Source: Strigamia acuminata
Taxonomy: Eukaryota > Arthropoda > Chilopoda > Geophilomorpha > Linotaeniidae
Length of the DNA: 62,000 bases
Direction of reading: 5' to 3'
Assembly (NCBI GenBank): GCA_949358305.1
Contig: OX442314.1
Span: 7,247,060 to 7,309,059 of the forward strand
Under the pieces are notes generated by a model that ran no database searches, was not told the DNA's origin, and saw nothing but the letters and a program-made list of their open reading frames with translations. Positions 19,677 through 57,600 of this stretch are shown here, piece after piece; position 1 is the stretch's first letter; every line of letters starts with the position of its first letter. The position numbers and the translations under genes were made by a program.

Positions 19677-19714
<38 letters not shown>

Positions 19715-19744
19715 GCCCGGGAATCGCCCTTCCGCCCGTCACCG

Positions 19745-22704: not shown

Positions 22705-23130
22705 CTGAAGCTTCTAGCAACTCAATTTTTGAAGAACTGCTGACAGTAAAAATGGAAAAAATTCAAGATAACATATGCCGAGGACAACCATATAAGGTAA
22801 TTTTAATAGATTAAAATTGGTGATTGACAGTCATTGATTTTTTATTTCTTGCATTTAGCTTTCCCTTACATTCAACGATTTTGGAAGACACTTTGGTGTA
22901 GGAGCGCAATATTCTGGTGCAACATCTAAAATTTATTTGAGTTATGAGAAAGTAATATTATAACCGGAATTTAAATGTAATCTGCATCACTGTATTCTGT
23001 TTTAAATCCATAGTTCGTATTCCTTAATTCACCTATAAATCCTTGCGGCAGTGAAGATGAATTCAAAGAATGTTATCGGAGTTGTTTATTTAGAGAGTTT
23101 AAACAGCATCTAAAGTGCAGGTGAGAAATT

Positions 23131-24132: not shown

Positions 24133-25048
24133 ATTATTGTCATGGTTTGACACAATTAGAAAATAATTAAACATCTTCTTTGCAAGATTTCCCTTTACGG
24201 AAACAGATTTACCACTTTGCAAATGTTCAAACAACACGCACGAGCAATACAATGCTGCAATTCAAGTGATTGAAACCACAAATTCAATTTCTGGTTGCCC
24301 ATGTCAACGTCCATGTCAACAAACAACTTTTTCCCCATTCACTGAAATAGGCATATCAGATAATGTTAAAACTATATCAATTTCTTTTGCAATAACTAAT
24401 GACAAAATTAGCGTCTATGAAGAACGGTTCACCTACGACATTATTGCTCTGCTGTCAGACTTGGGAGGCAATCTGGGCCTGTTTCTCGGTCTATCTTTAA
24501 TCTCATTACCTGATATCACTTGGTATTTATATTATATTGCATCACACATTCATCAAAAAAGACCTGTCAATAAGATTTGTCGTCTCTATGAGATATGCAA
24601 AAAGGAAGTCATTGCATATGAAGAGAAAACCACGAGAAATGGATTCTTCGAAAAGTTTAAGTTTGTGCTGGTATTTCTGACCGCAGGATTTACTTTATAT
24701 TGCTTGGAAATTCGTATCAACTACTACATTGATGAACCGGTTACAAAAATCGTTAGAATAGTTGAACGTCACTACAATGAATTTAAATCAGCCACGATTT
24801 GTGGTGAAAATCAAAATGATGACATGGACGAAGCCAGATCACATTTACTTAAAAACACAAAAAAAACTTGCGATAAAATATCACCCTGGCAATTGTTCAA
24901 TCAGGAATTGTCACTGAAAGAAATCTGGAAAACACTCAACATCCACGACACAATTAATATTGAGAATGAGGTACTTCTACTCAGGGGCGAATCTAGCCTT
25001 TTAGGGGCCCTGGGCTTGAGCTTTTTTCGGGGCCTCTTTATCAATATA

Positions 25049-25812
25049 CAGGGTGGAAGAAAAGTCTGTTCTCCTCAAATATTTCCTGAGCAATTGCATC
25101 TAGGCCAACTTTGATGAAGCAATCGTATAGGAAGTTGAGTGAGAGCAATTCAATGATGTCATCAAATTTGACCTTGAAGGTCATTTTCAAGGTCATTCAC
25201 TTGCTAACTTCTAAACTAATCACGCTAGAGCAAACTTTCCAATTACAAAGTTGTAGAGCACAATCAAATTAGTACTATCCAATTTATCTTAGTCATCTTA
25301 AGATAAATGATTTCTTTTTAAAAAGGAAACAAATCAGTAAAAAAATCAGCAAAGTGAAATTTTTTATTCTTGTGAAAAAAAAAATTATTGAGGCATTAAA
25401 AAAGATAGTGATTTTTCTTGTGTACTTGCACAATAATGCACATTTGAATAAATTTATTTAAGTAATTCAGTATTTTTGTAGTAGAAATTTAATTTCTGCC
25501 TCAATGGCTGACTTTATTTCAGCTGATTTGTTTTCATTTTAAAACGAAAACATTTAACTTAAGATGACTAAGATAAATTGGATAGTACTAATTTCATGGT
25601 GCTCTACAACTTTGTAATTGGAAATTTTGCTCTAACCTGATTGGTTTAGAAGTTAGCAAGTGAATGACCTTGAAAATGACCTTTGAGGTCAAATTTGAGG
25701 ATGCCATCAGATTTGCAATGAATGATTTCCTCTATGAGTTTTTTTTCAGTTTTCTGATATCTCAAGTATTTTGGAAATTACTTGGGGAGGTTCAGACTTT
25801 TGGGACACCCTG
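25049..25812. mobile_element. Mariner-type MITE nested in the hAT element
   Basis: The ends are CAGGGTG ... CACCCTG flanked by TA. About 340-bp arms share AAGGTCATTTTCAAGGTCAT, TTCCAATTACAAAGTTGTAG and CCAATTTATCTTAGTCATCT in inverted order. 764 bp, no ORF. A decayed relative lies at 45640-46118. Confidence 0.85.
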
Positions 25813-25904
25813 TATACCTAGGTAGTACAATGAGGTACACACAGCAGTTTCCGTTACGGAAATCACTAAGTGACATCAAAAATACTCAATGACGTAAAAA
25901 AAAG

Positions 25905-26057
25905 GTCAAGAAGACGCCAAAGGATGCCAAGAAGACGCCAAAGGATGTCAAGAAGACGCCAAAGGATGTCAAGAAAACGCCAAAGGATGTCAAGAAGACG
26001 CCAAAGGATGTCAAGAAGACTCCAAAGGATGTCAAGAAGACGCCAAACGATGTCAAA
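25905..26057. repeat. 21-bp tandem repeat
   Basis: About seven copies of AAGACGCCAAAGGATGTCAAG, with few substitutions. Confidence 0.9.
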
Positions 26058-26600
26058 TGACACAAAAATCGATATTATTTTTACACTTACACGTTTTATT
26101 GCTTCTTAAAACATAACATACTATACTTTTGTTGAACTCAAGGTTTCCCCCCAAATTTCATTGGTCGAGCCTCATTACTACTAATTCCAGACTGTATACT
26201 ACCACTAGGAGAAGTAGTTCTGACTTTTATTTATTTCTGTGATTGTTATAACCATTTAAGTTAATATTACTAGTAGGTTGATTTTTCTCATTAAAAAATG
26301 TTATTTCCACTAACAAAATAAAGTTGTGGGCACATATAAATGCCCAACTCATATTTTTCCTGTTTATTGGTTGCTTTGTCTGGAAAGCAATCGATTACAA
26401 TGTCTGTACATCAATTGCAATTCTGGTGTTTGGGTCTATTTTTTTGGATCAGTACACCAGTAAGAAGGCTCGACCAATGAAATTTGGGAGACATCTTGAG
26501 TTCAACAAGAGTATAGTAAATTGCGTTGTGTCTTGGGGGTTCTGGGCTCAAGCCCTATTTGCCTTGATGTAGATCCGCCCCTGTTTCTACTACTACAGTA

Positions 26601-28850
26601 CAGCCTTGGACATAAAAAACGTCCCTTACCTGCTTGAGCTGGACTTCAGAATGAGCAGTTTCAACTTTAATCACCAGATGGCGCAAAAAATCGTCGATTG
26701 TTTCTGACATCACAATGAAAAATCCAAAACTAGAAAAGAGCAAGTGATCAGCAAACATGGCCACCCGTTGCAAATACACGGTTCGAACGAGATAAAATTA
26801 GTAACACCATCATAGCATTTAATTAATTCTGTTTGTTTCCACTCCAGATGTTTGAAATTGTGAATTTTGGTTCCTTCCGGGATAAAAAAACAAAGATAAG
26901 TCCACGATTTTCGGCTTTGCTGCCGAACAAGTGTTGACTATTTTTCCGTGATGAGGAATTACGATGAGATGTTGGTTTGGGTTATGAAATTAACTGGATA
27001 CATTTTAGGTCCCGAAAAGGTAATTAATTCGGAACAAATGACAAAGTATTAATTTTTTTTTTCAGTTTTTGAGGTTGAATCGATCGCAAACTCGAATTAG
27101 ACAATCCACAACGTTTTGCCACTTCATTTCAGTAAATCACCGTGGATTAATAGCCCACTCCTGCTCACCATCAAATGCATCACTAGGAATCTAAATAGGT
27201 AAAATTCATTCCTCTGGTAATTTATTTTCCATTTATTTATCCATTTATTTGTTTATTTTGTAGGTTATTTTTATTTTGGGAGCAAAAAGTTGATTTTCAG
27301 AGAGTTGTGCATTATTTGCTGGCTATGTGTTGGAAAACAACTTTAAAACCAGCTATTAAAGTATTTTTATTTCTTTATTATTTAATGGTTTATAACTGAT
27401 CTATTTGTTTTGTTTTGTTAGGAAATTCTAAGGAATGGAATCGTTTTGGACCTGTGCAATTGGTTTGCCATGAAGGAATTGCAGTTCAATTTATCCGTGC
27501 CCAGCAGAATTATTCAACTACACGAGGATTATTTGAAACCACAAATTTCTCAAAAAATGTATTTTTTTGCCAAAAAATGTATTTTTTTGCCAAAAAATGT
27601 ATTTTTTTTGCCAAAAAATGTATTTTTTTTGCCAAAAAATGTATTTTTTTTATCTAAAAATCTATTTTTTTTTACCCAAGAGTCTATTTTTTTCAAAAAA
27701 ATCTATATTTTTACCTAATAATGTAATTTTTAACCCAAAAATGTAATTTTTTAACCAAGAGTTTAATTTTTTACTTAAAGAATGTATTTTTTTTTGAGTA
27801 AACATCAATTTTTCTTATCTAAAACTGTTTTATTCAATTAAAAATTGTATATTTCAATAAAATCATTTTTTTTGTTTGCCTACAGTTTGTTTTTTGTCAA
27901 AGAATTTACTTTTTCATCTAAAAATAAATTATTTTATCAGACTATTTTTTTATCAATAATTTTATATTTTTTAAGCGAAATATTCATTTTTTAAAGACTA
28001 AAGTTAATTTGTTTTAAAAAATGCATGTTTTTAGTTTTTAGTTGGTTTTTTAATACAAAATTGTTATTTATTTTATAAAATACAATTTTCATATGAAATT
28101 GGTGTGCTTTTCAACTTAAAGATATAATAAATTGTGTATTTTTTGGGTCTAAAAACCCATTTTATACAGATTTTGTGTATAAATTTGTGATGTTTCAAAT
28201 AATCCTCGTGTAGTTGAATAATTCTGCTGGGCACAGATAAATTGAACTGCAATTCCTTCATGGCAAACCAATTGCACAGGTCCAAAACGGAGTGGGCTAT
28301 TAATCCACGGTGATTTACTGAAATGAAGTGGCAAAACGTTGTGGATTGTCTAATTCGAGTTTGCGATCGATTCAACCTCAAAAACTGAAAAAAAAAAATT
28401 AATACTTTGTTATTTGTTCCGAATTAATTACCTTTTCGGGACCTAAAATGTATCCAGTTAATTTCATAACCCAAACCAACATCTCATCGTAATTCCTCAT
28501 CACGGAAAAATAGTCAACACTTGTTCGGCAGCAAAGCCGAAAATCGTGGACTTATCTTTGTTTTTTTATCCCGGAAGGAACCAAAATTCACAATTTCAAA
28601 CATCTGGAGTGGAAACAAACAGAATTAATTAAATGCTATGATGGTGTTACTAATTTTATCTCGTTCGAACCGTGTATTTGCAACGGGCGGCCATGTTTGC
28701 TGATCACTTGCTCTTTTCTAGTTTTGGATTTTTCATTGTGATGTCAGAAACAATCGACGATTTTTTGCGCCATCTGGTGATTAAAGTTGAAACTGCTCAT
28801 TCTGAAGTCCAGCTCAAGCAGGTAAGGGACGTTTTTTATGTCCAAGGCTG
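26601..28850. mobile_element. 2.25-kb foldback derivative of the Tc1-like element
   Basis: Same termini as the 5.4-kb element (CAGCCTTGGACATAAAAAACGTCCC), flanked by TA (26599-26600, 28851-28852). About 940-bp arms are almost perfect reverse complements, including 26960-27190 against 28310-28510 and 27420-27545 against 28185-28300. The centre (about 27550-28180) is AT-rich periodic filler; 27830-28150 is the reverse complement of about 14190-14490 in the larger element. The transposase is absent, so it must be moved in trans. It lies in the intron just upstream of the second-half exon 28898-28982. Confidence 0.88.
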
Positions 28851-29944
28851 TACACTAAATTCTAAAAACATGCACCACATTGAACATTTTTTTGTAGGCT
28901 TATTATGGATATGAAATAGCTCTAAACATATCAATGCATCCTCTTTCACTTCCCTTTGGTAATTGTTCACGAATAAACACAGGTAATTTAACTAATTCAG
29001 TATACTGCTCTATGAATCACCTTTGTTTTTTATGCTACCAACTCAATTTATTTATTTATGCACGGTAGTGTGAATTATTTCACTTTTTTAAATTCCTTGG
29101 TACATGATGCATCAGAAAATTATTCTAACCTTTACTCTGTTTTTTCAGAAAAATCAATTGACCAATCTGCTTACCTTATAATTACACTTCAATATCTGTT
29201 TCCTCCTGGAGTATGTGACCAGCATCTAACGGTAATACGATAAGACGGGCGGATTGAGAAGTAATATCGGACTGGATATTTTTGGAAACAATAGATCATT
29301 GGAAAATTACGACATACTGCAGTTTGACTTCGCCAAATTAACAACGTTATAACGTTACTTTGGAATGCTTTTTCTCATAGAGGGAAGCAACCATTGTTAC
29401 GATCACATGATTTTATCACCTAATCTCATTTTCCAAAGGTCTATTGGGCCTACTGATCAAAATTCAACCGGGAGACTAAGCTTATTATGCCGTTTCTGAC
29501 ATATGATGTTGTGACTGGTATAGTCTTTGCGAAGGTAACCTTTTGTGACTGGTTATCTTGGTTTGGGACGCATACTCACCTAAATAATGACAAGAGACTC
29601 CATATTGTTGGTTGTTGGCCTTTAATATGTTTGTCTCGAGGTTGGAGAATCCCATCACCCCCGTGCAGGGGTGCCGTGATGGCACACCGCACCGGCAATC
29701 GACCCGTCACACATAGGGTCTGAACCCCATGTATGACGAGGTCGGTTAAACATAAAATTTGTTTTGTACTTACTCGAGTATGACCCATGCAGCCGCTCAT
29801 GGAGGCTGTAGCAGGGCCATCGTCATACTACTGAGCGTCGCAGTGGTGAATGGTGAGGAGAGCAGAGTCAGCACAGGTGTCCTTGCTGGCGTCAGAATCT
29901 TTATCACATGTCTGGTCTCTACGATGGTGACGCTCCCTCTCTCT

Positions 29945-30080
29945 CACCACACCACTCAACTCCCTCCTTCCCTATACTTTCCTATACTGGGTCAGTCTAC
30001 CCGCAAGGGGCTGACCTTAGGACTACAGGGCGGTGTGTGGCAGTGATGTAGGTCACCATGGGTTGGCCAAGCGGTCACAG
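29945..30080. repeat. Second copy of the dispersed ~135-bp repeat
   Basis: Matches 22145-22285 with the same landmarks (ACCACTCAACTCCCTCCT, GGCGGTGTGTGG, GGCCAAGCGGTCACA). It sits in the last preserved intron of channel copy 1. Confidence 0.6.
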
Positions 30081-30518
30081 TTGATTTTTTAAGATTTGTT
30101 TCAAACTTGTTACACCCTTTCTTTAGGGCCCGGGTCAACGTCCAAGTATCCATGCTAGCCCTTCTGTCTGACATTATTTTAAATTATAATTATGTCTGTA
30201 CAATTTGTTAGTTTTTCCTAAATAATCTGGAAGAAGAAGTTAACATTTTGTCACCTTTGGCTTTACACTATGGTTAGTTGAACATGGTAACACTTCGAGC
30301 CTTTACGGTAATAAATTAAACAAATTCACTGGAAAAAAATATGGCTTTACACGTTTTTTAATTGCTGAAAAGTTAATGTAAATTTGAACTTTCGGCTTTG
30401 TAAAGTCACATTTACAAAGATTGTAAATTTTTGTTTTAAACAATAACTTTACAAAATTAAAAAGACATTTTACAATGAACACGCACAATAACTTTAAAGT
30501 TTGTAAATTTTGAATTTG

Positions 30519-30760
30519 TCAGATTTAACAATAAATTTAATTTAAATTTAATTTAAATTTTCAGTTTTAACAATAAATTTAATTTAAATTTAATTTAAAT
30601 TTGTCAGTTTTAACAATAAATTTAATTTAAATTTAATTTAAATTTGTCAGTTTTAACAATAAATTTAATTTAAATTTAATTTAAATTTGTCAGTTTTAAC
30701 AATAAATTTAATTTAAATTTAATTTAAATTTGTCAGTTTTAACAATAAATTTCATTTAAT
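30519..30760. repeat. 43-bp AT-rich tandem repeat
   Basis: Five to six copies of a 43-bp unit beginning TCAGTTTTAACAATAAATTT and continuing with AATTTAAATT-type palindromic DNA. Confidence 0.9.
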
Positions 30761-30898
30761 TTTAATTCTTTTTTTAATTTTATGTTTGTTAAAAAATTAA
30801 ATTAACTAATTAAAGTTTTCTAAAAACAAACATAAAATTACAAACATTAAAATTACTGCTAAAAAAATTAAAAAATAAAAGTAAAAATTTTCACACAC

Positions 30899-31836
30899 TG
30901 TCGTGATTCGACTTTGTGGTTAAGAAATACAAATACTTTGTCGGGACAAGCAATACACTTTATTATTAACTTAGGAATAATTAATACAGTCAGATAAATG
31001 TATGATTGATGGTCTCGGATCCTGTTGCGAATACGAGTTGTTGCTAAACAATTAGCCCTCAATTGTTTAGACTTACACGTGGCTTCTGTTGTTGTCTAGG
31101 GTTATATTTTTTACACTTCGCGAATCGAGTCAGTCTCAATTCGCTTAGCAGTTTGGATGTGAAATCAAACGAGGCCTACTTCGTTTGGGACGCGTGGCGC
31201 GCGTGTTAATTACCGCCAAAGTGTTAGGTTGAATCCAAACTGAATCCGTCTTGTTCCGTACGCGTGGTGCGCAGAATTCTTTCGCCAATGCGTTCGGTGA
31301 GCCCAAACTAAACGAGATCCGTTTCGTGTGGAATACGTCTTGCGGAACACGTGGCGTACGTGATTTTCTTCGGCGATCGATTGGCGATTCGTATCGATCG
31401 TGGATTAGTCCCGAAATTATGTTCGGTTGACACGTGTTTTCGAACAAACACGCGGGAATTCGCTTCGTGCGAATTAAACGATAGATTCGGATATTTATTC
31501 TAACGTGGATTGGCCACGTTAAATAAATGCGGCTTGTTGCTTACAGTTGATTTTATCAGCGGGCACCGGTCCTCGATCAATCCGATGAAACGGCCTGAAA
31601 GGTGAGGAAAGTGGTGCTCTTGCTGAATTGTGGTAACTGTAGTGTCATTTCCGGTCAAGCTTCGGTCTTATATACTGACCGGAAGTGACGTCATATATAG
31701 ATTATTCTGATTATTCAGATCCGCAGAAATGCGAGACTAGTCAATCTAGTCTATTTCTAGTAGCGCTCCTGGCGGTCGGATTCATCAACACGATAAATCT
31801 TATCAATTTATCTTCAGGTGATTCGGAATCACCACA
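30899..31836 (-). repeat. 3' LTR of the Gag-only element
   Basis: 938 bp, TG...CA ends. On the minus strand it has TATATAAG (31674-31667) preceded by a TGACGTCA CRE/ATF site (31693-31686) and an ACTTCCGG ETS-like site. An AATAAA lies at about 30960-30965. Confidence 0.92.
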
Positions 31837-32129: not shown

Positions 32130-35100
32130 TTATTCCGCCTGCGAACGCCAGTTTTTTGCCATGTTGTCAAATTTAGCGGTGAATTCCTTCATGATTCTCT
32201 CTTGTTCTTTACCGAGCATTTTCAGCAATTCTTCTCGCTCTGCAACTTTTTCGTTGACTTTTTGCTTTGCTCGTTCAGGACAATCCTGTCGCCAATGGCC
32301 GTCCTCCCGGCAGAAGTTGCAGGGACCGCTCTTTCCTCCCTCTCGGTTGACTGGTCCCTTCGTGTACTCTCTGTAACAAGAAGACGAGATCAAATCTAAA
32401 TGGTCTTCCGATCTATCCTCAGCACTAGACGTCTTTGTTTGGTAAGCGTTCCCAGGAGGCGGTATGGGGTTTGACCCGCTATTATTCCTTTTTGATAGAA
32501 GTGGTTCGATATTTCCGTTTAGGTAATTCCGTGATTGGAGCAGCTTAGTTGAGTCTATGCTGCGCTCCTGTATTCGTTGCTGTCGAGCCACTCCTAGAGC
32601 TCGTTCTTCTTTTGTCAGATTTTCGTTATACCGAGCATTTACTTCGGTGTGTTTTTTCTCGACGAAAGCTAGGATGGCTTTGAAATTATCTCCTTTAGGA
32701 GCGTTCATTTCTCGTAGGACTTTGGTTGCGGTTTCGTTTAGTCCTTGTTCGAAGAGAGCTTTCTGAGCGTGTTGGTCAAATGGTTTGTCCATTTCACGGA
32801 ACAGGCTGTCGGCTCGTTGTACGTACTCTCTCAGAGTTTCCCCGGGAGCTTGCTTCATAGAGCTTACTCTTTTCTGGATTTCCTGGCTCGTCTCGCCATA
32901 TTGGTTGTGGAACTTTATGACGAAGTCTTCCCAGTTTCGGGGTTGGACATCAGCGTACCAGTTTCGGGCTCGATTTATCAGCATTTCTGGTATCCCGCGT
33001 GAAACCATTTCGTCGGGTTCCGCTCCCAAACGATTAATCGTCAGGGCGACTTCGTCCAAAAACAAGTTGCCGGCGTTCCAGGATCCGTCGAACTTAATTA
33101 GTCTCAGGGTCGTCCACTTGATGTTGTTATCCTTGCGAGAATACAGCCATCGGTCCGCGGAGTAACGTTTCAACAATACTTCGCTTCGATCGTCTTCCTC
33201 GATCTCTTGGCCACGGCTTTGTTGAAGTTTTTGGTCCATGGCCCGAAGGAGTTCGTCTTTCATCGTCCGTAGTTGGTTGCTTAGCGAGTCAGTCTCACTA
33301 AGCAGCGGTGATGATCGTGGATTGTCGGAAGGGAGGCTTGGGTAATGCGTACCGTTGCCCGTCAGTCCGAATTGATTGTGTTGGAACGACGTTTGTCCTG
33401 ATGATCCCGCGGTGTTCGGGTTATTCGCGAGGTCTTGCGCTATGGTTGAGTTATCGGGGTTCGCTTTCTCTGGAGCGGAGGTTCGGCTCAACTTTGTTCC
33501 GGGCGGTATCAGATCGTCCAGTCGGGTCCCCGTGAGGGCTCCGTCCACTTTTTTGATAAAAACGTAGGAGTCTCTCCCAGCATATGCTTCGGCGGCGTGT
33601 TTCTTTTCGAGGTGGTTTTTAACGGCATTAATCTCCTCGAGCGTCGGCATGGCTAGTTTATTACGACCTGCTTCGTTTCGTATCTGGTTCTTTTGATTTA
33701 TACATCTGATTAGTTCGGCGTTAGGGTCGCTTGGGTTAGTATTACTGGTTTGGCCAGTTTTCATTGCGAATGAGTTTTTCATTGCCCATGATTCAGCACC
33801 CTGATTATTTCTTCTATCTTGTATAAACGCCTCGTAGAGTTCCTTCTTGACTTCGTCCGATTCGTTTACGATACTGTCTAGTCCGGTGACTCGGATACTG
33901 AGGTGAGATGTCAGAGAGTCGATGCTTTCGCTGTCTGAAGTTTGCTCGTCGTTTTTCTTGACCGGGGGTTGAGTTGAATTGACCCGGCACCGTTTCTCTT
34001 CTTGATTTGTAGAGTTTTCGGCTGTTCGTTTTTCCGTTCTCTCGTTGACCAGATCGATCACCCTACTTAATTCTTCGTAAGGGTCCTTATCCTGATCTAT
34101 CTCGATACCGTGAGCGCAAGCCACTCGCGTCACTTCGATGGCCTTTGCTACTAACTCCTTTGCTGAAGGGGATCGCTCTGGGGAATTCTGCAAGGAGTTT
34201 GTCTCCGAGCGTTGACCCAACCCATTGCTTAATGGCTGGATTTCATGATCTCTTGCCATTTCTCGTTCGATGATTCTTTGTTTTGCTAGTAATTCTCGGG
34301 CCAATTCTCGCTCCATTACTATTTGTTTTTCTTGACTCTCCTTGGCGGCGGCTGTTTGCCTCGCTTGACGTTCGCGAGCTATTTCTTGTTCCATTGCGGT
34401 GACTTTTTTGCGGTGCTCTTTGGCTAGTTCTTCCATTAATTCAGCCTTTCTCTCCTCCAAGGCGTCTATTCTCGCCTGATCAGCAATCTCACGTTCCATT
34501 TCGGCTCGTTTTTCTGTTATTTCTCGAGCTATTTCGCGTTCGAATGTGGCTCGTCTATCTGCCGCCTTTTCTTGCCTTGCCTGATTTGCTCGGGCTCGTT
34601 CGCGCAATATTGCGGTTTGTGTTGTGGTCGTACTATTGAAGAGGGTCATTTGATCTCTTTTGGGAATCGACCGTGGCGAATTTGGCAGCGAAATCGATGG
34701 TGTTAGTGAACGATGAAGCGTTAATCGTTTCAATTTGTTTTGACGGTCGTTTTCATCGTTTAATCCGCTGTTGTTTGGGTCATTTGGATCGTCGAAACTA
34801 TGGATAGGTGAGTCCTGTCCGTTTTCTTCGATTAGAATTTCGTCGCTATCTAACTCATTGGTTGGATCGTGGTCGCTATGGATTGGTGGGTTTTCGAATG
34901 ATTTAGTGAAAATATTCTCTCCGTGAGAGGTTCCTGGTCCTTCGAATTCTCTGCCCGAAAACTGGAGCTTTTTTGCAATCGGGTTAGTTTCTTCTGTTGG
35001 AATTTCAGTCGAGTTAGTCTCAACTTTGTTTTCGTGAATTCGAGCTTCCGGCGTCAAGAGTGGATCGTAGACCGTTCCATCCTGACGTTCACGTTCTTGT

Positions 35101-35165
35101 CTTTGCTTGTAACGTGTTTCACGATCGCTAGCGGTGGCTGCATAATTATTTGAATCCGATTTCGA

Positions 35166-35168
<3 letters not shown>
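32130..35168 (-). CDS. gag: Gag polyprotein of the Gag-only LTR element
   Basis: 1012 aa, uninterrupted. Gag builds the particle that packages element RNA in the cytoplasm. The N-terminal half is charged and low-complexity. A long Glu/Arg/Ala-rich coiled coil (about residues 185-305) has repeated EREIAREI-like units. A retrotransposon-Gag capsid-like domain (about 670-840) has NWEDFVIKF-HNQYGE and the GETLREYVQRAD motif. A zinc knuckle CNFCREDGHWRQDC (CX2CX4HX4C) lies near residue 950. The ATG is immediately preceded by an uninterrupted A tract (plus-strand T's at about 35169-35202). The capsid segment aligns with that of the Gag at 58855-61878 (KWDDFVKQF, GESLHSYMLRAE), so the elements are related. 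It stops without any frame continuing into Pol. Confidence 0.9.
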
Positions 35169-35203
<35 letters not shown>

Positions 35204-35267
35204 ATTTGACTCAAACAATTTCGATATCCCGGTATTTCTCAGTTTTGTCGTAAGGTTAGCAAATTCT

Positions 35268-35287: not shown

Positions 35288-36225
35288 TGTCGTGATTCGA
35301 CTTTGTGGTTAAGAAATACAAATACTTTGTCGGGACAAGCAATACACTTTATTATTAACTTAGGAATAATTAATACAGTCAGATAAATGTATGATTGATG
35401 GTCTCGGATCCTGTTGCGAATACGAGTTGTTGCTAAACAATTAGCCCTCAATTGTTTAGACTTACACGTGGCTTCTGTTGTTGTCTAGGGTTATATTTTT
35501 TACACTTCGCGAATCGAGTCAGTCTCAATTCGCTTAGCAGTTTGGATGTGAAATCAAACGAGGCCTACTTCGTTTGGGACGCGTGGCGCGCGTGTTAATT
35601 ACCGCCAAAGTGTTAGGTTGAATCCAAACTGAATCCGTCTTGTTCCGTACGCGTGGTGCGCAGAATTCTTTCGCCAATGCGTTCGGTGAGCTCAAACTAA
35701 ACGAGATCCGTTTCGTGTGGAATACGTCTTGCGGAACACGTGGCGTACGTGATTTTCTTCGGCGATCGATTGGCGATTCGTATCGATCGTGGATTAGTCC
35801 CGAAATTATGTTCGGTTGACACGTGTTTTCGAACAAACACGCGGGAATTCGCTTCGTGCGAATTAAACGATAGATTCGGATATTTATTCTAACGTGGATT
35901 GGCCACGTTAAATAAATGCGGCTTGTTGCTTACAGTTGATTTTATCAGCGGGCACCGGTCCTCGATCAATCCGATGAAACGGCCTGAAAGGTGAGGAAAG
36001 TGGTGCTCTTGCTGAATTGTGGTAACTGTAGTGTCATTTCCGGTCAAGCCTCGGTCTTATATACTGACCGGAAGTGACGTCATATATAGATTATTCTGAT
36101 TATTCAGATCCGCAGAAATGCGAGACTAGTCAATCTAGTCTATTTCTAGTAGCGCTCCTGGCGGTCGGATTCATCAACACGATAAATCTTATCAATTTAT
36201 CTTCAGGTGATTCGGAATCACCACA
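35288..36225 (-). repeat. 5' LTR of the Gag-only element
   Basis: Near-identical to 30899-31836. TATATAAG lies at about 36063-36056 and the CRE-like TGACGTCA at about 36082-36075 on the minus strand. This copy would drive transcription of the element. Confidence 0.92.
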
Positions 36226-38719: not shown

Positions 38720-41700
38720 ATGCAGACTAACACTTCAGTGAGCAGGAACAGGCAAAGATTAAGACAGCTACGTCCTGCAATTCACCGATTGTTGAAGAAT
38801 GATGCAAATAAACTCAGATGTAACTTAATCGGCTTTGATGATTTTGTCAAAATCAAACATCATGGGTGCAAGCGTCGCTTGTTTTGGCTTGTTTTATTCT
38901 TATTTTGCACATGCATGCTCACCTATCAGACTAATGATAGAATAATGCATTACTTGAGTTATCCAACAGTTGTTGATGTAATGAGCACATCCGAAGAAGT
39001 TATTTTACCAAACTTGATGATCTGTAGCAGCAATACGGAAGAAATGGGTAGACTTTGGAATAAAATTCATAATGAAATCGAAGAATGCTTTGATATGTTG
39101 AAAACTCTAATGGCAATCCCAACACATAATATAAAAGAACTTTGGCGAGCGACTAATTTGACGAAAGAAGTAGTGAGCATAAAAATAAAAGTATAAAAAC
39201 ATTTTTATGTTATATGTTGTCATTTTTATGTCATTTTTATGTCATTTTTATGTCATTTTTATGTCATTTTTATGTCATTTTTATGTCATTTTTATGTCAT
39301 TTTTATGTCATTTTTATGTCATTTTTATGTCATTTTTATGTCATTTTTATGTCATTTTTATGTCATTTTTATGTCATTTTTATGTCATTTTTATGTTATA
39401 AACAACATTTAAACTCTTTATTCTGCACAGGGATATTCTAATTCGAACACAACAGTCGTTCCAACAGAAACTGGCAATATTTGGGGAATATGTGCAACAA
39501 TTCAATGTCGTAACTATAAACAAATACATAGCACTATCTACTCAAGTACACTTTATATCATTTATTGACACAGCCAAAGGTTTTAGCAACTCTTTTGGAG
39601 GACAAGTACTGACAGTAAAAATGAAAAATAACATTTGTCCTGAAGAGCCATACGAGGTAAATTTAAAAATTAAAATTCTTATTTAAATTCCTATGTAAAT
39701 TCTTTTATGCATATAGGTTGTACTTACACTCAATGATTTTGGAAGACACTTTGGCTTAACAGTGCAATATCCCGGTGCAACATACAAAACATATTTGAGT
39801 TACAAGAAAGTAAAATTTTAACCAGAGCTTAAAATTACTTACTTGTTAGTATATATCCTTATCCTGTTTTGAATTTTTAGTTTGTATTTCTTAATTCACG
39901 TATAACTCCATGCTCCAGTGAAGATGTATTCAGAGACTGTTATCAGAGTTGTTTATCTAAAAAATTTAAAAAGCATCTAAAGTGCAGGTAAAAAAATTGT
40001 CATGATATTGAACAATCAGAAAAATAATTAAACATCTTCTGTGCAAGATTTCCCTTTACCAAAACAGATTTACCACTTTGCAAATGCTCAAACGAAACAC
40101 ACAAGCAATACGAAATTGCAAGTCAGCTGATTAAAACCACAAATCCAATTTCTGATTGTCTCTGTCGACGTCCATGCGAACATTTAATATTTATAACGCA
40201 CACTGATGCGGACATAACAGATGATAATAAAACTACATCTATGTCTTTTGCAATAACTGATGACAAAATTAGTGTGTATGAGGAACGGTATACCTACGAC
40301 GTTATTGCTCTTCTGTCAGATTTAGGAGGCAATCTAGGCCTGTTTCTTGGTTTATCGTTACTCTCATTACCTGAAATCACTTGGTATTTATGTTATGTTG
40401 CAACAAACATTGACCAAAAACCACCCATCAATAAAATTCGCTGTCTGTACGAGATATGCAAGAAGAAAGTCGTTGAGAATAAAGAGCAAACCACGACAAA
40501 TGGAGTATTAGAAAGGTTAAAGTTTGTGCTAGTATTTGTGATTGCAGGAATCACTTTATATTGCTTGCAAATTCGTATCAACTACTATATTGATGAACCG
40601 GTAACAACAATGGTTAGAATAGTTCAACGCCGCTACACCGAATTTCAGTCGATCACGGTCTGTGGTGAAAAACAAAATGATGACATAGACAGTGCCAGAG
40701 ATCACCTACTGAAACACACTAACAATACCTGCAATGAAATATCGCCCTGGCAATTGTCAACAATAAATTGTCATTGGATGAAATCTGGAAAACACTCAAT
40801 GTCCATGACACAATTAATTTAAAGAATGAGGTATGCTAGTATGGTGTATTACAAATACAAACATAACAACGAAATCATTGTTGTAGAAATATTATGGATT
40901 TAAAACACCGTTAAACGTATCAATGAATCCCATTCCACTTCCCTTTGGCAATTGTTCACGAATAAACACAGGTAATTTTACTAACTCAATTTCATAAAAT
41001 TCACTGTTCATTTCACATTACGGTATTTTGTATAGTATAAATGAAATACCTTTACTGGTATATAAACACACACAACACTTTTATTGAATACATTGTCACG
41101 TCGTTAATTTCGACTGGAAACAATGGTTTAGAAAAATTAGGTTTTCAGGGGTTTGTATTAATCAAAAGATGGGAGGTCCACAGGCGCCACAACCCTTAAG
41201 ACTTAACCATGGTGGCAGCTCAGTAAAGACAGCGTCTGTTTGTGAATCAGCCCGGGTGCAGGATATCAGCCCGGGCGCTTGCAAAATGGCTAACTGTGAT
41301 ATACGAATTACGACCGAAATACTATGTCCCACTGAGGGAGAGCATAGTCACTCACAAAAGGCACAATGAAGGATATTTTCTTCTCCCGTGTTCACAAATG
41401 TTGTGTGTACGCACTCACAGGTGCCTGACAGCAAACCGCGGCTTCACGTCAGGAATGCAAAAATAAATAAACAATTGAGACGACAAATACTTTGTATTTG
41501 TATTTGTCCAGAAATACAAATAAAGAAAAAATAAATAAAGATTATCCAAAAACTTAGGAAAAATTAAATTATTCACAAAGATAAAAGGATTTTTTGTGTC
41601 AAGACAAAACTGTGACAACACTTTTCAACATTAGCTTCATATAAGGAAGTGATAATAGCATGAATGTGCCAGGGGGCTTCCGTACAATAATGGGAAGTTG

Positions 41701-44217
41701 ACATGATTGATACAAATAAGATACTATACAAAAGTATAGGACATTCAGCACATTTTAGTGTAGCTACTTTTCATATTTTGTTAACATCCTGGAAATTTGT
41801 CTTGTCTGATTGATAAGTTCTTTTTCAGAAAAATCATTTGACCAATCTATTTACCTTTTCATTAAATTTCAAAATCTGTTATCGTCAAAATTATGTGACC
41901 AGCATCTAAAGGTAATTCAACACAGAGGTAGATTGTGGAATAATATCGGCCTAAGCTTAGGCATTATTGGAAATATTGGGTCCATTTATGGTCAATCTGT
42001 TCCTGACATAACAATTCATTTAATATTCATTAGGTTCTCTATTTTTCCTTCTGTTACTGCCTTAATCCTTCAAAACATAAATTGCACAAAATTATTCAGA
42101 GATCCAAAGATGAATTAGAAACATTAAAAAATTAATATTTTTAATTACAATTGATTAATTTTCGATTTAATTCTGACCTTTCAACCTACAATATGAAAAT
42201 CCTTTAAATATTATTTAAACTCTAGGTTTGTGCACACAAATTTTTATTCATTGAAGAGTTTAATGCAGCATGCTCCCCAGCAGGCTCCACAGCAGGCTCC
42301 ACAGCATGTTCCCCAGCAGGCTCCCCAGCAGGCTCCTCAGCAGGCTCCCCAGCAGGCTCCCCAGCAGGCTCCCCAGCAGGCTCCCCAGCAGGCTCCCCAG
42401 CAGGCTCCCCAGCAGGCTCCCCAGCAGGCTCCCCAGCAGGCTCCCCAGCAGGCTCCCCAGCAGGCTCCCCAGCAGGCTCCCCAGCAGGCTCCCCAGCAGG
42501 CTCCCCAGCAGGCTCCCCAGCAGGCTCCCCAGCAGGCTCCCCAGCAGGCTCCCCAGCAGGCTCCCCAGCAGGCTCCCCAGCAGGCTCCCCAGCAGGCTCC
42601 CCAGCAGGCTCCCCAGCAGGCTCCCCAGCAGGCTCCCCAGCAGGCTCCCCAGCAGGCTCCCCAGCAGGCTCCCCAGCAGGCTCCCCAGCAGGCTCCCCAG
42701 CAGGCTCCCCAGCAGGCTCCCCAGCAGGCTCCCCAGCAGGCTCCCCAGCAGGCTCCCCAGCAGGCTCCCCAGCAGGCTCCCCAGCAGGCTCCCCAGCAGG
42801 CTCCCCAGCAGGCTCCCCAGCAGGCTCCCCAGCAGGCTCCCCAGCAGGCTCCCCAGCAGGCTCCCCAGCAGGCTCCCCAGCAGGCTCCCCAGCAGGCTCC
42901 CCAGCAGGCTCCCCAGCAGGCTCCCCAGCAGGCTCCCCAGCAGGCTCCCCAGCAGGCTCCCCAGCAGGCTCCCCAGCAGGTTGTTGAGATATTCCAGTTT
43001 GAATCTGTGGCACCAGATTTGGAAATTTAGTACAAGTCTTTTTTGTGCTAACTTATCTTCAAATGGTGGCTGCTCGAAAACTAAGAGGGGTAGACACTTG
43101 TGGTTTTCAGGGTTTGTTAAGGAGAAAATCGTCTTTCTTTTGGTGTAAAAACCATTAAAATCTGTGCTAAAAAAAATTGGGATTTGTTCTATCCGTAGTT
43201 TGGGCGAATGTGAATGTGATGCCAACTTCAGCCTGGTCTGATTAGACAAAAAAGGACCTAAAAAATTGATTTCCCAGGTTGGAATTTGCATATCTGGTAC
43301 CGCTGCAGAGATATGGGCAGAAAAATAAGTTTTTGAAAAGAAAAAGTTGTCAAAAAACTCAGTTTTCTGCCGATATCTCCGGAGCCCCAAGACAAGGCCA
43401 TGCTAGTAAACTTAATCAATCATTCAGTTTTTCTTAAATGACCTGGAAGAAGAAGTTAACATTTTGGCACCTTTGGCTTTCAACTAAGAATGGTTGAACA
43501 TAGTAACACTTCGAGTGTTTAAGGTAAGAAATTAAACAAATTATATAACTGCCTACACTTTCAAACCTTGATTTTATGAAATAGACTATTCGTAGAAATA
43601 CAAAGCATAATCCATGTGAAAAGAAAAAAAGTGCTTATTTCAAGTGTAAAAATGCTTGTATCAATAACAATTCATTTTACGCAGTTAACTGCAGGTAGGC
43701 TAGGTCAAATATTTTACTTTTCACTCTATCCCAATTTTGACCTGTTTGCAACACATTCAAACAATGCATAGACCTTTGATTTACAAGTATGTATACTACT
43801 CTTTGTTTCAGATTACCTTATATGGGGAGACTGCATTTGCCAGCTTGTAACACATCAAAGGAAATTACTGCCGCTCATTTAACGTACTTAAAGAATTTCG
43901 ACTCTAATCAAAAACAATGCAAATGTAAACAACCTTGCGAAAACAGTTTTAACAAAATTATGTTGCATGGAAATAAATTATTAGTTAATTTCCACACAAT
44001 AATACTTATTCAATTACCAGATACTTTCTTAGAGAGTATAGAAGAGCAAGAGGCATATCCGATATCTCAATTGCTTAGTGATGTTGGTAGCATTGTGGGA
44101 TTAGGTCTGGGAATGTCATTACTGTCTTTCTACGTTTGCATTTTAAATATTTACAATCGATATCGCAGTCAGGAGTTGGGTTGTCAATTTGGTCCCAAAA
44201 GAGCCAGTAAAATATGA
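38720..44217 (+). CDS. Tandem-fused double DEG/ENaC channel, copy 2 (two apparent lesions)
   Basis: Sodium-channel family protein with two complete channel halves in one frame, about 792 aa if intact. Exons: 38720-39172, 39431-39509, 39574-39656, 39717-39809, 39881-39987, 40048-40830, 40887-40971, 41829-41911, 43428-43523, 43585-43694, 43812-44217. Half 1: N-terminus, TM1 (LFWLVLFLFCTCMLTY), YLSYP post-TM1 motif, Cys-rich ectodomain, TM2 (GLFLGLSLLSL). A roughly 45-aa Lys-rich linker follows, then half 2: TM1 (FVLVFVIAGITLYCLQIRI), ectodomain, TM2 (GLGLGMSLLSFYVCI), stop. Internal exons of the halves have matching sizes and phases (79/85, 83/83, 93/96, 107/110 nt). Lesions: a 1-bp deletion near 40760-40770 (783 nt against 784 in copy 1) and a TAA in exon 43428-43523 where copy 1 has TAT. 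It may be a recent pseudogene. A 5' UTR exon probably ends AAAAGCAG at about 38641. Confidence 0.8.
39217..39395. repeat. 11-bp tandem repeat (TTTTTATGTCA)n in intron 1
   Basis: About 16 near-perfect copies in the first intron of channel copy 2. It is inverted relative to the array at 38140-38335. Confidence 0.95.
42268..42985. repeat. 12-bp minisatellite (CCCCAGCAGGCT)n
   Basis: About 58 units, almost pure from 42335 on, with early units varying (CACAGCAGGCT). It lies in intron 8 of channel copy 2. Because 12 is a multiple of 3, all frames stay open on both strands. Confidence 0.97.
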
Positions 44218-44854: not shown

Positions 44855-45074
44855 ATGAAATACTTAATTATCTTATTCCTTGTTATTCTGTCGTGCTTGG
44901 GTAAGTTATATTCTGCACAAAAATAATCAAATTATTCGTGAACATTAACATGTTTTAATTTGATTAGCAATCACGACTAATGCGCAGGCCTGTGACCTTA
45001 AATATTGCAAAGATACTTGTAAAACTGCTGGTCTGAAAGGTACTTGTATACAGCGTGAGTGCGTATGCGTTTGA
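44855..45074 (+). CDS. Secreted six-Cys CSalpha-beta-type peptide 1 (defensin-like / channel-toxin-like)
   Basis: Two exons, 44855-44900 and 44968-45074, 50 aa. The phase-1 intron falls at the end of the signal peptide, the usual layout for this fold. The signal peptide is MKYLIILFLVILSCL. The mature part has Cys spacing C-x4-C-x3-C-x8-C-x4-C-x-C; the Cx3C plus CxC pair is the CSalpha-beta hallmark. It is shorter than typical arthropod defensins (about 36-45 mature residues) and closer in size to short potassium-channel toxins and drosomycin-like mini-peptides. It lies 640 bp downstream of channel copy 2 on the same strand. Antimicrobial, venom or endogenous channel-ligand roles are all possible; sequence alone does not decide. 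Confidence 0.8.
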
Positions 45075-46651: not shown

Positions 46652-46871
46652 ATGAAATACTTAATTATCTTATTCCTTGTTATTGTGTTGTGCATGGGTA
46701 AGTTATATTTTGCACCAAAATAATCAAATCATTCGTGAGCTTTAACTTGTTTTAATTTGATTAGAAATCACGACTGCTGCGAATTGTGATCCTCAATTTT
46801 GCAAAAACTCTTGTGGAACTATTGGCATGAAAGGTGTTTGTGGTGGACCAAAAGGGTGCGACTGCATTTGA
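46652..46871 (+). CDS. Secreted six-Cys CSalpha-beta-type peptide 2
   Basis: Two exons, 46652-46697 and 46765-46871, 50 aa, the same exon sizes and intron position as peptide 1. The signal peptide MKYLIILFLVIVLCM is nearly identical. The mature part has diverged strongly but keeps the Cys spacing x4, x3, x8 and the final CxC; the loop before CxC is five residues instead of four. The gene and about 500 bp on each side are duplicated from peptide 1. The conserved leader and divergent mature region suggest diversifying evolution of a secreted effector. It lies 2 kb upstream of channel copy 3. Confidence 0.8.
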
Positions 46872-48949: not shown

Positions 48950-50610
48950 ATGCAGAATAATTTTTTGGTGGGAAAACTACGTCCGGTAATTTACCGATTG
49001 TTAAATGACGATAAAAACAAACTTCGATGCAACTTAATTGGTTTGGATGATTTCGTAAACAGCAGACGGCACTGGACAAAGCGTCACATCTTTTGGCTGC
49101 TTTTATTCTCATTTTGCACATGCGTGCTCACTTATCAGACTTATGATAGAATAATGCAATACTTAAGTTATCCTATGGCTGTTGATGTAACGAGTAAATC
49201 AGAAGATGTCATTCTTCCACAATTGATGATCTGTAGTAGCAATACGAAAGAAATGGCGAGACTATGGAATAAAACTTACATTAAACTCAAAGCTCAACCG
49301 GATGAATGCTCTGATATGTTGAAAACTCTGATAACAAACCCAGCCTACAATGTAGACGAACTTTGGAAAGCTGCTAATTTGACGAAAGAAATAGTGAGCA
49401 TAAAAATAAAAGTAAAAAGATAGAATAAAGCATTTTTTATTTGATCAATTAAAATGATTTTAACCTTTCATTTCGCACAGGGATATTCTAAATCAAGCAA
49501 AACAGTTGTTGTGGCAGAAATTGGATACATTTTGGGAATGTGCTCAACATTTCAATTTCGTATGTATACTGTATAACCAAAAATGTGTCTATCTAGCACT
49601 CTAATTCAATATGTTTTATTGCCACAGCAAAAGCTTCTAGTGACTCATTTGTTGGACAAGTACTGACGGTAAAAATGGAAAAAAGTTATGATAACATATG
49701 CCCTACAGCGCCATATTGGGTAATTTTTAATGAATTAAAACTGTGATTTGTATTTATCATCTTCTTTTTGCAATTAGCTTTTCCTTGCATTTCATGATTT
49801 TGGAAGACAGCTTGGCATGGGAAGACAATTTATCGGTGGAACAAAAAAAGTTTATTTGAATTACAACAAAGTAAGATTTAATCCAAGAATGTACATTTAC
49901 TAAGGTTCGCTTAATTTTGTTTACAATTTTTAGTTCATATTTCTGAATTCACCGATAAATGAATGCTCCAGTGAAGATGAATTCAGAGAATGTTATCGAA
50001 GTTGTCTATTGAAAAGATTAAAACAGCATTTAACATGCAGGTAAGCATACTGCACATCAGATGGTATCGTACAATTGTTAGTTTTCATAAATAAATGTTC
50101 ACACATCACTTTGATAAATAAAAAAACCAGTATAATGTCCAAATAGTTTTAGATTACACACAAACGCTTCATCACCGACATTCACAAGTGCTATCAATCC
50201 CACAATGCAATACAAACTCAATATTGTTACCAAACCCGTCCCATAATCCAACATAATCTCGAACCCACAATAATTTTACAAACAAACTCTCTAACAACAA
50301 TCAAAAACATCGCCATCAAAAATCTTTTTTGCTAGATTCCCCTTCATGAAAATTGATTTGCCACTTTGCAAATGTTCAAAGGACATAAACATGCAATATG
50401 ATGCTGCAAAACAGCTAATCGAAACCACAGATCCAATTTCTGTTTGCCAATGTCGACGTTCATGTGAAAAAATAACTGTTACACCATCCACTGAGACAGG
50501 CATGGCAGATGATAAAAAAGAATTTTCCGCGTCTTTAGAAATAACTAATGATCGAATGAGCGTGTATGAAGAACGTTACACCTACGATGTTATCGCTCTA
50601 CTGTCAGATT
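48950..50610 (+). pseudogene. DEG/ENaC channel gene, copy 3, cut by an LTR element in TM2
   Basis: Exons 48950-49393, 49481-49559, 49628-49719, 49778-49870, 49934-50040 and 50334-50610 match half 1 of copy 2 exon by exon. TM1 is HIFWLLLFSFCTCVLTY, followed by YLSYP. The ectodomain keeps the Cys pattern (CSSEDEFRECYRSCL). No stop or frameshift is seen in these exons, unlike copies 1 and 2. The reading frame breaks at LLSD just before the TM2 pore signature, where the LTR (TGCTGCG) begins at 50611; the chimaeric frame ends 10 codons later. The second half, if it exists, lies beyond the retroelement outside this window. The 5' flank (48600-48830) matches that of copy 2, including the AAAAGCAG|GTA donor. 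Confidence 0.8.
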
Positions 50611-51569
50611 TGCTGCGATCCGGGTTTTTATCTACTTAATTTCTAATAAATTAAGCAGAAACCGCAGGTGAATGCTTAACAAGACTTATATCGCGGCCGA
50701 AACTTGTCTAGGGTTAAGTTTATGGAAATAAAGGCACAATTTAATATGGTAATAAAAATCACACAAATATTTATTCTTTAAATTACAATATATATTAAAA
50801 ACGATGGAAATATCACAGAATGCGACAAGTCGCAAGAATAAATGAGCGGGAACAATGGAAGGGCTTGCAACGACTGTTGCAAGCTACAAAGCGCTAAAAT
50901 GGCGCTTAAACAACACACAGTTGTTAGGCGAAGGCGAATTGTCTTCGTTTGCTGAACTCACGAACGATGGTCGAAGACGATGGTTCTCGTGGGCTCCTTC
51001 TACGGCTCGTGCGACGGCTCGGCGGCGGTGGTTGACGGCTGTAGGCGTCCGGCTCTCGTACGATGGCGGTGGCTGTCGTTCGCGCGGCAGCGACGGCGAT
51101 GGTTCACGATCGTCGGGAAACTTCTACTTCTCGATAGCTGGAATTAGCGACGGCTAATTCAAGCTGAATTGCTGGCTTTGTGCGTTTGATACACAAAGAT
51201 AGCAGGCGAAACTGAGTTACAACGGTCCTCTATCAATACTTTTCTTTCAGGAGCAAAAGCAGTGATGTTGAGGTTGTTGTTGTATTTTTCAGAGTCCCGA
51301 TTTGAGCCAAGACGCGAGCCCAGCACGCTTCAATATTGCGCAGAAAACCTGCGCACTTAGCTCAAATGGGTGCAACTAGTGGTTATTACACCATATTGCA
51401 CCATAACGGCTAATAACCGTTTTCACCCCGGACAACCTGGGGTGATATGTGCCTAGAGAGGATTTCTCCCCTCGGTCACATGATCTGACTTGGCGTGTGC
51501 CACAGTCAAATTAATTAGAAGATAATTAATTTAATCTTCTAAGTTGGTGAATATTTTGAGATCACCACA
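50611..51569 (-). repeat. 3' LTR of the large element
   Basis: TG...CA boundaries (TGCTGCGATCC ... GATCACCACA). An AATAAA on the minus strand lies near 50770. The other LTR starts at 61993. Confidence 0.85.
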
Positions 51570-54607: not shown

Positions 54608-57600
54608 CTATGTCTTGGCTCGCGGAACGCGAGATCTCAAGTTGTACTTTGACTTTCGCGAAGTACAATCCAACTTGTTTAGATTGTCATCAGCATCGTC
54701 TCCAATGTCAGATGAGTTATATACTTCATTGTTTGAAATTTTCTCTTTTTCTAAAAACATTTCCTTTTCTAGATTTTCATCAAGAGAAACATTTTCAAGT
54801 CGCTGGTTTATTTCATCGACTTCGTTATTTTTGAGTTTCGATTTTTTACTCGATTCCGTGTTTTCGACAGGAATTTTGGATAATTTAGCATCATCCAAGG
54901 TATTAACAATATTCTTTGTTTTTTGACCCACTTCCTCCCCTTCCAGCCAAATTTCTTGGTTGAAAACGGGAAAGTACGGCATTAATTCAGTGCCGTGAAC
55001 AGCTGGATAAATTTTATTATCACTCAGCCGTCGAAGTTGAAAGGCGCCTCCTTGTAACCTTTTGATAATTACATAAGGCCCATTCCTTTTCGGTGAAATG
55101 CCTGCTGCTATTCCTTTAGCGGCATTTGAGAGAATATGAGACTCTCGCCAGACTAAATCATTTTGTCTGAAGTTGTCGAATTTTTTATCTGATTTTTCAG
55201 CTTCGACACGGCGTCTCAAATCTAAGACGTGAGACATCATATGCTGATACGTCTCTGCAATTATTGTTTCTAATTTCTGAACATATAAATGCGGATTTTT
55301 TGGATCAATGACTAAAATTCCTTCCGGAATTCTTGGATCCCAAGGAATTCTTAATTCTCGGAAAAAATTTAAGAAAGCAGGAGAATAATCTCTGCCTCTT
55401 GTTACAGTTGTTCTCAAACTGAATGCAAATTCGCGTAGATACTCATCCCATTGGTCATGAATATCTAAATAAATCGAAACTAAATATTTAATATCTCGAT
55501 TGGTTCTCTCCACAGGATTGCTTTGTGGATGATAAATCGATGTCGGTGTTCGCGACATGTCGAATTTTTTGCAAAATTCTTTATAGACCTGTGATCGAAA
55601 TTGTGGTCCATTATCACTTATGATTTGTCTCGGAAATCCGAAAGTCATTGATAAGTGATAAATTGTGTTGGCAACTTTTATTGCCGTTGGATTACACATT
55701 GGAAATAATTCGGGCCAATGTGTAGCGACATCTACGATGACGCAAATGTGGGTATTGTTTTTTCTGGTTCTTGGTTTGGGACCAGACAAATCCACACTGA
55801 GGCAGTCAAATGGTCCAAATGGTCCAATTTGAGCGCCTTCAATTTCGGTCTTTGATCTCGGCTTACATGCCTGACATCCTTGACAATGTTGAATAAAACG
55901 TGTAATATCACGTTTCATACCTTTCCAGGTATAAACTCTTCGAGTTCGGTACATTGTCCTCGCAATGCCTGGGTGGCCGGACAGTGGATGTCCGTGCATC
56001 AACCAAATGATTTTATAAATCAATTTTCTTGGCACAACAACTTTAAGTGCCCTACCATCCTCTCCCAATTCATCGGTGGAGGTAGGATGATAATGGAGTA
56101 GCATATCTTCTTCAATGAGATAAGTACTCGCGTGTCTTTCAAAGTTTCTTCTTTGAAGACGAGTTACTATGTAACTTGGATATTGCTTGTTTAGCAAGTA
56201 ATTGCGAATATGTTGGCAAAATTCGTCTGCTTTTTGCGCTGCAATAATGTCATCTCTCGTTGGAGGATCACATTCTAATTGCTTCGCAATTTTAGCTGCA
56301 AATGCTTTAATTAAAACATTTGTTGTTGGCAGCTCGAATTTTTTAGCCATCATAGCTCTTAATTCGACGTCAGGGGTTCCTGACGGATCATGCATGTTAA
56401 TACAAAAATTAATTAATGCTTGATCGTCGTCATTAACTATTATTGACTTGGGTAATTCGTTCAATTTTCCCATTTGCCAATTTCGGCAAGGAGATGGACA
56501 ATATGATAATAAATCATCATTATCGCCATCGTCTTCTGGTTCGTCAGGTGCGCTGACAGGTGCACGTGACAATGCGTCTGCTATTACATTTAGCGGACCT
56601 TTGACGTATTGTATTTCGAACGAATACGCCATCAGCTCCATTTGCCAACGAGCTAATCTGCCCGACGGGTCAGATAACGACATCAACCACTTAAGTGCTT
56701 GGTGATCCGTTTGTACAGTGAATGTAGTGTACTCTAAGTATGGGCGAAATTTGCGTAATCCCCATACCACTGCGAGACATTCTAATTCTGTCACAGTATA
56801 ATTCTTTTCAGCGGGTTGCAAGCTTCTGCTTGCATACACGCATGGCATTTCGACTTCTTGGCCATCCACATTTTTCTTTTGTGTAAGGGCTGCACCCAAC
56901 CCTTGTTTACTGGCGTCAGTATGAACAATAAATGGCATGTACAAGTCAGGCATCTTCATTGTTTCAGCATTCGTAAGCAGGTCTTTTATTGCGTCGAATG
57001 CTGCTTGATGATGCAGTTCCCAATCGAACTCCGCATCTTTCTTCAAGAGTGGCCTTAGTGGTTCTGCCACTGTGGCCAAATTCTTGATTAGGCGGTGAAA
57101 GAAATTCACCATGCCTAGAAATCTTTGTAATTCCTTAAGATTGGTAGGAGCAGGAAATTGCGTAATTGCAGCGACTTTTTTAGGGTCTACTGCAAGTCCT
57201 TCTACTCCTACTTTGTAGCCTAGAAAAATTAATTCCTTTCTACAGAGATGCGTCTTGCCAGGGTGCGCATGTAAATTAGCTTCTGCCAATTTTTTAAACA
57301 CTATATCTAAATGTTTAATGTGTTCTTCGAACGATTTGGATACAACAATTATGTCATCCAAATATGCCCATGCAAATTTTCTGTAAACGTCACCCAAAAC
57401 TTTTTCCATTAATTCTTGGAAGGTAGTTGGTGCGTTTACTAATCCGAAAGGCATGACTAAAAACATTAGTCTTCCCATTGGGCTCCAGAAGGCAGTTTTT
57501 TCTCTGTCTTCAGGTCGCAATTCTATCTGCCAATATCCCTTGGTCAGATCTATAGTACTGACCCATTCGAATTCTCCGATTTCTCGCAGAATTTCCTCAA

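Follow-up and report, generated by a model that had tools for sequence, protein, structure and literature searches.

Two channel subunits in one chain: a predicted family of double DEG/ENaC genes in the centipede Strigamia acuminata

Can one polypeptide contain two whole subunits of a DEG/ENaC channel? The question is raised by a gene at positions 38720-44217 of a stretch of 62,000 nucleotides from contig OX442314.1 of the centipede Strigamia acuminata (the whole of this stretch is called the window below). DEG/ENaC channels are trimers of subunits with two transmembrane helices, here TM1 and TM2. An earlier note on this DNA had claimed that two whole subunits are encoded by this very gene in a single chain. 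Taken literally the claim is not borne out, since the gene has a frameshift near position 40757 and a TAA in its ninth exon, both of which were overlooked. The idea of a two-subunit DEG/ENaC gene does hold for the family, in which seven clean open reading frames (ORFs) of 792-824 amino acids have the Pfam domain ASC in each half. From the genome sequence we consider it very probable that these genes, called doubles in what follows, form a DEG/ENaC family with two whole subunits, four transmembrane helices and two ectodomains in one chain of about 800 amino acids.

The hallmark of a double is its sixth exon, the fused exon, which runs from the end of the first ectodomain through TM2 and a linker into the TM1 of the second subunit. 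The fused exon of copy 1, one of three family members in the window, was used as the query of a six-frame search of the genome (237.5 Mb, 157 contigs). The search gave 147 matches, a number that includes the query and the other copies in the window. The fused exon recurs far beyond chance, with 131 of the 147 matches spanning the TM2-to-TM1 join and 125 of these free of stop codons. The stop-free joins fall into a near group (84 matches, 51-100% identity) and deep lineages (41 matches, 25-34%), and 84 of the 147 matches, 78 of them near and 6 deep, are open over their full length. Nearly all of the near join-spanning matches (83 of 89) lie on contig C1, while the deep ones are sited on C1, C3, C5, C6, C8, C9 and C11. 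Further tandem arrays of deep matches were seen on C6 at 3.7-4.2 Mb and on C11 at 5.02-5.05 Mb; a double was modelled at one locus on each of them (L041 and L042).

A complete gene was read by hand at locus L023. It has 11 exons, GT-AG introns and a single open frame of 793 amino acids, and the intron phases 0,1,0,0,2 ahead of the fused exon are repeated as 0,1,0,0,2 after it. A modelling script that requires GT-AG borders, the intron phases of L023 and sequence similarity was applied first to 20 loci and later to another 3, and clean 11-exon ORFs were obtained at 7 of the 23 (L022, L023, L025, L026, L027, L032 and L035). On the true strand the total scores ranged from 1542 to 4367 in the first 20 loci, and the three later, deep ones scored 737 to 782; a reverse-strand null of 8 loci gave -84 to 14. 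The seeds came from nine near and four deep loci among the first 20, and the scores of these 13 loci are inflated accordingly. The second end of the gene was also followed through the genome, where a search with the last L023 exon gave 150 matches. A last exon lies downstream on the same strand of 62 of 88 near fused exons within 6 kb, and of 72 of 88 within 10 kb; the opposite-strand control gave 4 and 5 of 88, respectively. Intact doubles are thus present among the paralogues of the same genome, while a lack of any intact double in relatives was among the findings that, according to the earlier note, would refute its idea.

Each of the halves has been compared with the family on its own. In L023, the first half alone matches the Pfam family ASC (PF00858) at 3.4e-26 in two stretches, the best of them over profile positions 296-453, and the second half alone at 3.1e-19 in one stretch that covers positions 26-449 of 455. 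A single stretch in the first half of L032 covers profile positions 4-453, and single stretches were likewise found in the second halves of L025 (19-449) and L035 (26-449). The joined chains of L025, L032, L035 and L040, the last of them lacking two exons missed by the modeller, gave ASC matches of 1.6e-50 to 3.2e-43, all above the cut-off. The two halves of one chain are 26-31% identical to each other in nine doubles, and hydrophobic stretches stand at the four expected helix sites in the six doubles that were scored, TM1 being the weakest (1.28-1.55). Invariant Cys is present in the fused exon. A selectivity motif of the GxS type in TM2 is a DEG/ENaC feature, and in the first half it reads GxS in 20 of 23 fused exons and GLA in the other 3. 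The second half has GMS in all 10 usable tails of the near group, and GLS or GFS in five and GLC or GMC in two of the seven deep tails. A third subunit was looked for in 18 tails and none was found: in the 17 last exons whose tail reaches the second TM2 the chain stops behind it, and the remaining one, the mis-modelled exon of L033, ends earlier. Judged by these features, each half counts as a subunit domain of the DEG/ENaC type. The whole chain is a new architecture, since a single frame encodes two subunits with four helices where an ordinary member has one two-helix subunit per polypeptide.

The two halves are joined by a linker. It is 38-39 amino acids long in 18 near sequences (38 in the fused exon of copy 2, the gene at 38720-44217). 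Its ratio of nonsynonymous to synonymous substitution rates (dN/dS), pooled over the 127 of 153 pairs with dS under 0.9, which are not independent of one another, is 0.49, as compared with 0.34 for the flank before it and 0.36 for the flank after it. By this measure the linker is coding sequence under purifying selection. The alternative that survives best accepts the single chain and has it cut afterwards in the cytosolic linker, to give ordinary two-helix subunits at a fixed 1:1 ratio. A Lys-rich linker that is less constrained than its flanks would suit such a cut; its near-constant length and recurring residues argue against it, although the same residues could serve as the N-terminus of the second subunit, and we regard cutting as improbable. 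Half as probable, to our mind, is that two adjacent ordinary genes merely look fused, either because each has a messenger RNA (mRNA) of its own that begins or stops within the shared exon, or because the mRNA is bicistronic. The same genome does have single DEG/ENaC genes in tight tandem arrays (three in 7.5 kb at L044), and the fused frame was read from genomic DNA alone. However, separate genes do not account for the stop-free joins or for a linker of near-constant length under selection. The linker lacks Met in 13 of the 18 near sequences, and the second half therefore has no start codon of its own there between TM2 and TM1; in six single genes, moreover, a stop codon was seen close after TM2.

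The age of the fusion was examined with a maximum-likelihood tree of the TM1 and TM2 regions of 46 sequences. In this tree, 18 second halves make up one clade with an ultrafast bootstrap (UFBoot) of 100, 22 first halves are set apart with a support of 92, and the five single genes included group together (90), outside the first-half and second-half clades. Since the first and the second halves each form a clade, the fusion is old. This agrees with the ancestral fusion that the earlier note had proposed: it predates the lineages that are 25-34% identical to the fused exon of copy 1, and all seven deep paralogues examined share the design, with exons 1, 5, 6, 10 and 11 kept in each. Six ordinary single genes (L044-L046) were looked at for comparison. 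They stand in tight tandem arrays, their chains end soon after TM2, and their TM2 motif is GFC or GAC, in place of the GxS of most doubles. Single genes and doubles have in common a phase-2 intron before the TM2 exon; in the single genes it was read on the acceptor side in five and on the donor side in three (AG/GT once, AA/GT twice). The simplest reading of these sequences is a single old origin by one tandem duplication and exon joining. A DEG/ENaC gene would have been duplicated in tandem and, before the deep lineages diverged, the last (TM2) exon of one copy would have been joined to the first (TM1) exon of its neighbour; the double family would then have spread to more than 120 places in the genome assembly.

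It should be pointed out that several observations weigh against a two-subunit chain or weaken the case for it. The architecture is predicted here from genome sequence, and the copy that the earlier note had cited is broken at two places. No complete clean model was obtained at 16 of the 23 loci: L033 has all eleven exons modelled but with a wrong last exon (747 amino acids), L021, L031 and L034 miss one exon each, L024, L028, L029, L030 and L036 have no reliable late exons within the 8-kb stretch taken, and in the seven deep loci, for which near-group seeds served, at least one weakly conserved middle exon is absent or low-scoring. The script imposes GT-AG borders and the phases of L023, so these features are not independent evidence at other loci. 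In the pairing of last exons with fused exons, the upstream same-strand control is not zero (18 of 88 within 6 kb, 24 of 88 within 10 kb), which is to be expected of tandem arrays. The loci C32:58129 and C1:5396613 score alike and may be one locus assembled twice, for which reason the places counted cannot be strictly equated with genes. For the linker, 5 of the 127 pairs have a proportion of nonsynonymous differences (pN) that equals or exceeds that of synonymous ones (pS), and for the flanks none does. The TM1 of near doubles is not called at a hydropathy cut-off of 1.6. Distant first halves are 28-32% identical among themselves in raw comparison, no closer than first halves are to second halves (25-31%), and the branching order therefore rests on the tree. 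Finally, an AlphaFold model of the fused exon, built with 24 aligned sequences, has helices where TM2, linker and TM1 are expected (85-119, 128-149 and 153-182), but the model is weak (predicted local distance difference test, pLDDT, 64.5; predicted template modelling score, pTM, 0.31) and a Foldseek search with it gave no significant match in the PDB, for which reasons no weight is placed on these helices.

Coming back to the gene in question, all of its eleven exons can be recognised (Table 1). As the earlier note had seen, the fused exon is open from the first TM2 (GLFLGLSLLS) via a Lys-rich linker into the second TM1 (FVLVFVIAGITLYCLQIRI), and it is bordered by an acceptor AG at 40046-40047 and a donor GT at 40831-40832. 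Further on, 1 nucleotide has been lost relative to copy 1 near 40757, because of which the frame ends at a TAA at 40820-40822 and the modelled exon stops short at 40657; the second break is the in-frame TAA in exon 9, an exon that was added by hand. The later exons do complete a second half, as had been claimed, in the sense that they are all there; this copy does not, however, allow the second half to be translated. Two repeat arrays were noted in its introns, one with a unit of 11 nucleotides at 39218-39400 (intron 1) and a minisatellite of about 60 copies of a 12-nucleotide unit at 42266-42985, between exons 8 and 9. Copy 1 carries the same fusion with no frameshift and fully open, as the note had said. 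Only exons 3-8 of copy 1 were recovered; exons 1, 2 and 9-11 were not found by the modeller within 15001-31000, and between exon 5 and the fused exon there is a stretch flanked by inverted repeats (about 23130-24133). Copy 3 ends within TM2.

Table 1. Coordinates of the three family members in the window
Feature	Position	Strand	Basis
Copy 2 exon 1: cytosolic N-terminus and TM1 of subunit 1	38720-39190	+	gene model; Pfam ASC 1.9e-11
Copy 2 exon 2: ectodomain 1	39431-39509	+	gene model
Copy 2 exon 3: ectodomain 1	39574-39656	+	gene model
Copy 2 exon 4: ectodomain 1	39717-39809	+	gene model
Copy 2 exon 5: ectodomain 1, then phase-2 intron	39881-39987	+	gene model
Copy 2 fused exon 6: end of ectodomain 1, TM2, linker, TM1 of subunit 2, start of ectodomain 2	40048-40830	+	Pfam ASC 8.6e-17
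Copy 2 exon 7: ectodomain 2	40887-40971	+	gene model
Copy 2 exon 8: ectodomain 2	41829-41911	+	gene model
Copy 2 exon 9: ectodomain 2, in-frame TAA at 43485-43487	43428-43523	+	identified by hand
Copy 2 exon 10: ectodomain 2, then phase-2 intron	43585-43694	+	gene model
Copy 2 exon 11: end of ectodomain 2, TM2 of subunit 2, stop	43812-44217	+	gene model; Pfam ASC 1.3e-09
Copy 1 exons 3-5 (22705-22796, 22859-22951, 23014-23120)	22705-23120	+	gene model
Copy 1 fused exon, intact	24187-24970	+	Pfam ASC 3e-13
Copy 1 exons 7-8 (28898-28982, 29149-29231)	28898-29231	+	gene model
Copy 3 exons 1-5	48950-50040	+	gene model; Pfam ASC in exon 1, 5.4e-12
Copy 3 fused exon, cut off inside TM2, then unrelated sequence and stop	50336-50639	+	Pfam ASC 0.047, below cut-off

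The window thus holds three decayed family members and no working double gene by itself, and one may ask whether the whole family is dead or dying, its members being fused relics without function. All three window copies are damaged, and other matches in the genome are fragments or contain stops. Such a state is very unlikely for the family as a whole, given the 84 full-length open matches, the seven complete ORFs, the pooled dN/dS of 0.34-0.49 and the presence of both halves in the deep loci examined. That the join is a chimera of the assembly is hardly conceivable, since nothing was found in favour of it other than, at most, a few loci assembled twice (C32/C1), and join-spanning matches lie on eight contigs at identities to the query down to 25%. 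Separate genes, a dead family and an assembly artefact were all rejected, on the stop-free joins, the intact ORFs, the selection and the copy number and divergence of the family.

There are a few other features in the window. Just downstream of copy 2 are two short genes (44855-45074 and 46652-46871), which seem to have two exons each and encode small peptides, rich in Cys and secreted by their looks; they are accompanied by a stretch of 300 nucleotides, 91% similar, at 44679 and 46476. Long frames of the retroelement type occupy the minus strand at 54608-61881 and 32130-35210 (1422, 1008 and 1026 amino acids), the last of them, of 1026 amino acids, being flanked by identical direct repeats of 300 nucleotides at 30899-31198 and 35288-35587. 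Frames of a Tc1-like transposase are found at 14759-15719, with a match to Pfam HTH_Tnp_Tc3_2 (3.9e-14) in 14759-15394.

Among proteins of known structure, the best matches of the L023 double are the myriapod channel BRTNaC1 (8ymx, 8ymr and 8ymw; 5.5e-15) and the centipede channel PDPNaC1 (9jf7; 5.4e-13), and the second half alone matches BRTNaC1 at 3.4e-10. The genome gave a single marginal match to the insect odorant receptors (PF02949), which speaks against its being that of a winged insect. Each half resembles these channels in having TM1, an ectodomain with Cys residues and a TM2 with a motif of the GxS or GxC type, which is GIC in BRTNaC1. The lengths are also similar, 385-409 amino acids for a half of a double and 421-431 for the chains of BRTNaC1 and PDPNaC1. 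The difference is that the latter are single two-helix subunits, whereas a double has two subunits in one chain. PDPNaC1 is reported to be a homotrimer from the antennal sensory neurons of a centipede (PMC12714832). By analogy with these nearest solved relatives, the doubles may well be sensory cation channels. Covalent joining as such can be compatible with channel function: in a study on engineered ASIC concatemers, subunits joined head to tail are reported to work as channels in oocytes (PMC4899722). Those concatemers were made in the laboratory from three subunits with a short artificial linker, while the doubles are natural, have two subunits and a linker of about 38 amino acids or more. 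In the parts of the literature searched, which did not extend to the large protein databases, no earlier description of a natural two-subunit DEG/ENaC was found.

How, then, could such chains be assembled? Fused subunits are not new in other channels: K2P potassium channels and two-pore channels have duplicated pore subunits fused in one chain, and there the number of fused subunits divides the fourfold pore. In the DEG/ENaC doubles two does not divide three, and a single trimer made of doubles alone would therefore have one half left over. Since joined ASIC subunits work with a short linker, a linker of 38 amino acids should let both halves sit in the same trimer. The linker is short and predicted to be cytosolic, and there are two pore-type TM2 helices per chain. 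Each double would fill two neighbouring positions, and the third would be filled by an ordinary single subunit, of the kind encoded in the same genome; a twin-pore complex, or an arrangement with a spare half, is also conceivable. We put forward such natural covalent dimers in 2+1 trimers tentatively, by analogy, and at somewhat less than an even chance. A wider proposal could just as well prove right as wrong: that the doubles break the rule of one chain per position, with three doubles forming a twin-pore complex (a trimer of first halves beside a trimer of second halves) or with doubles and singles in a fixed 2+1 arrangement, by which the doubles would be a sensory receptor system of over 100 genes that is obligately heteromeric.

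In either form, a natural, old and highly expanded family of covalent pairs would pose a puzzle for the assembly of DEG/ENaC channels. The doubles would also be natural concatemers, which can potentially be used in work on stoichiometry and gating. For the animal itself, they suggest that a large repertoire of receptors may have gone unrecognised in an arthropod-like animal.

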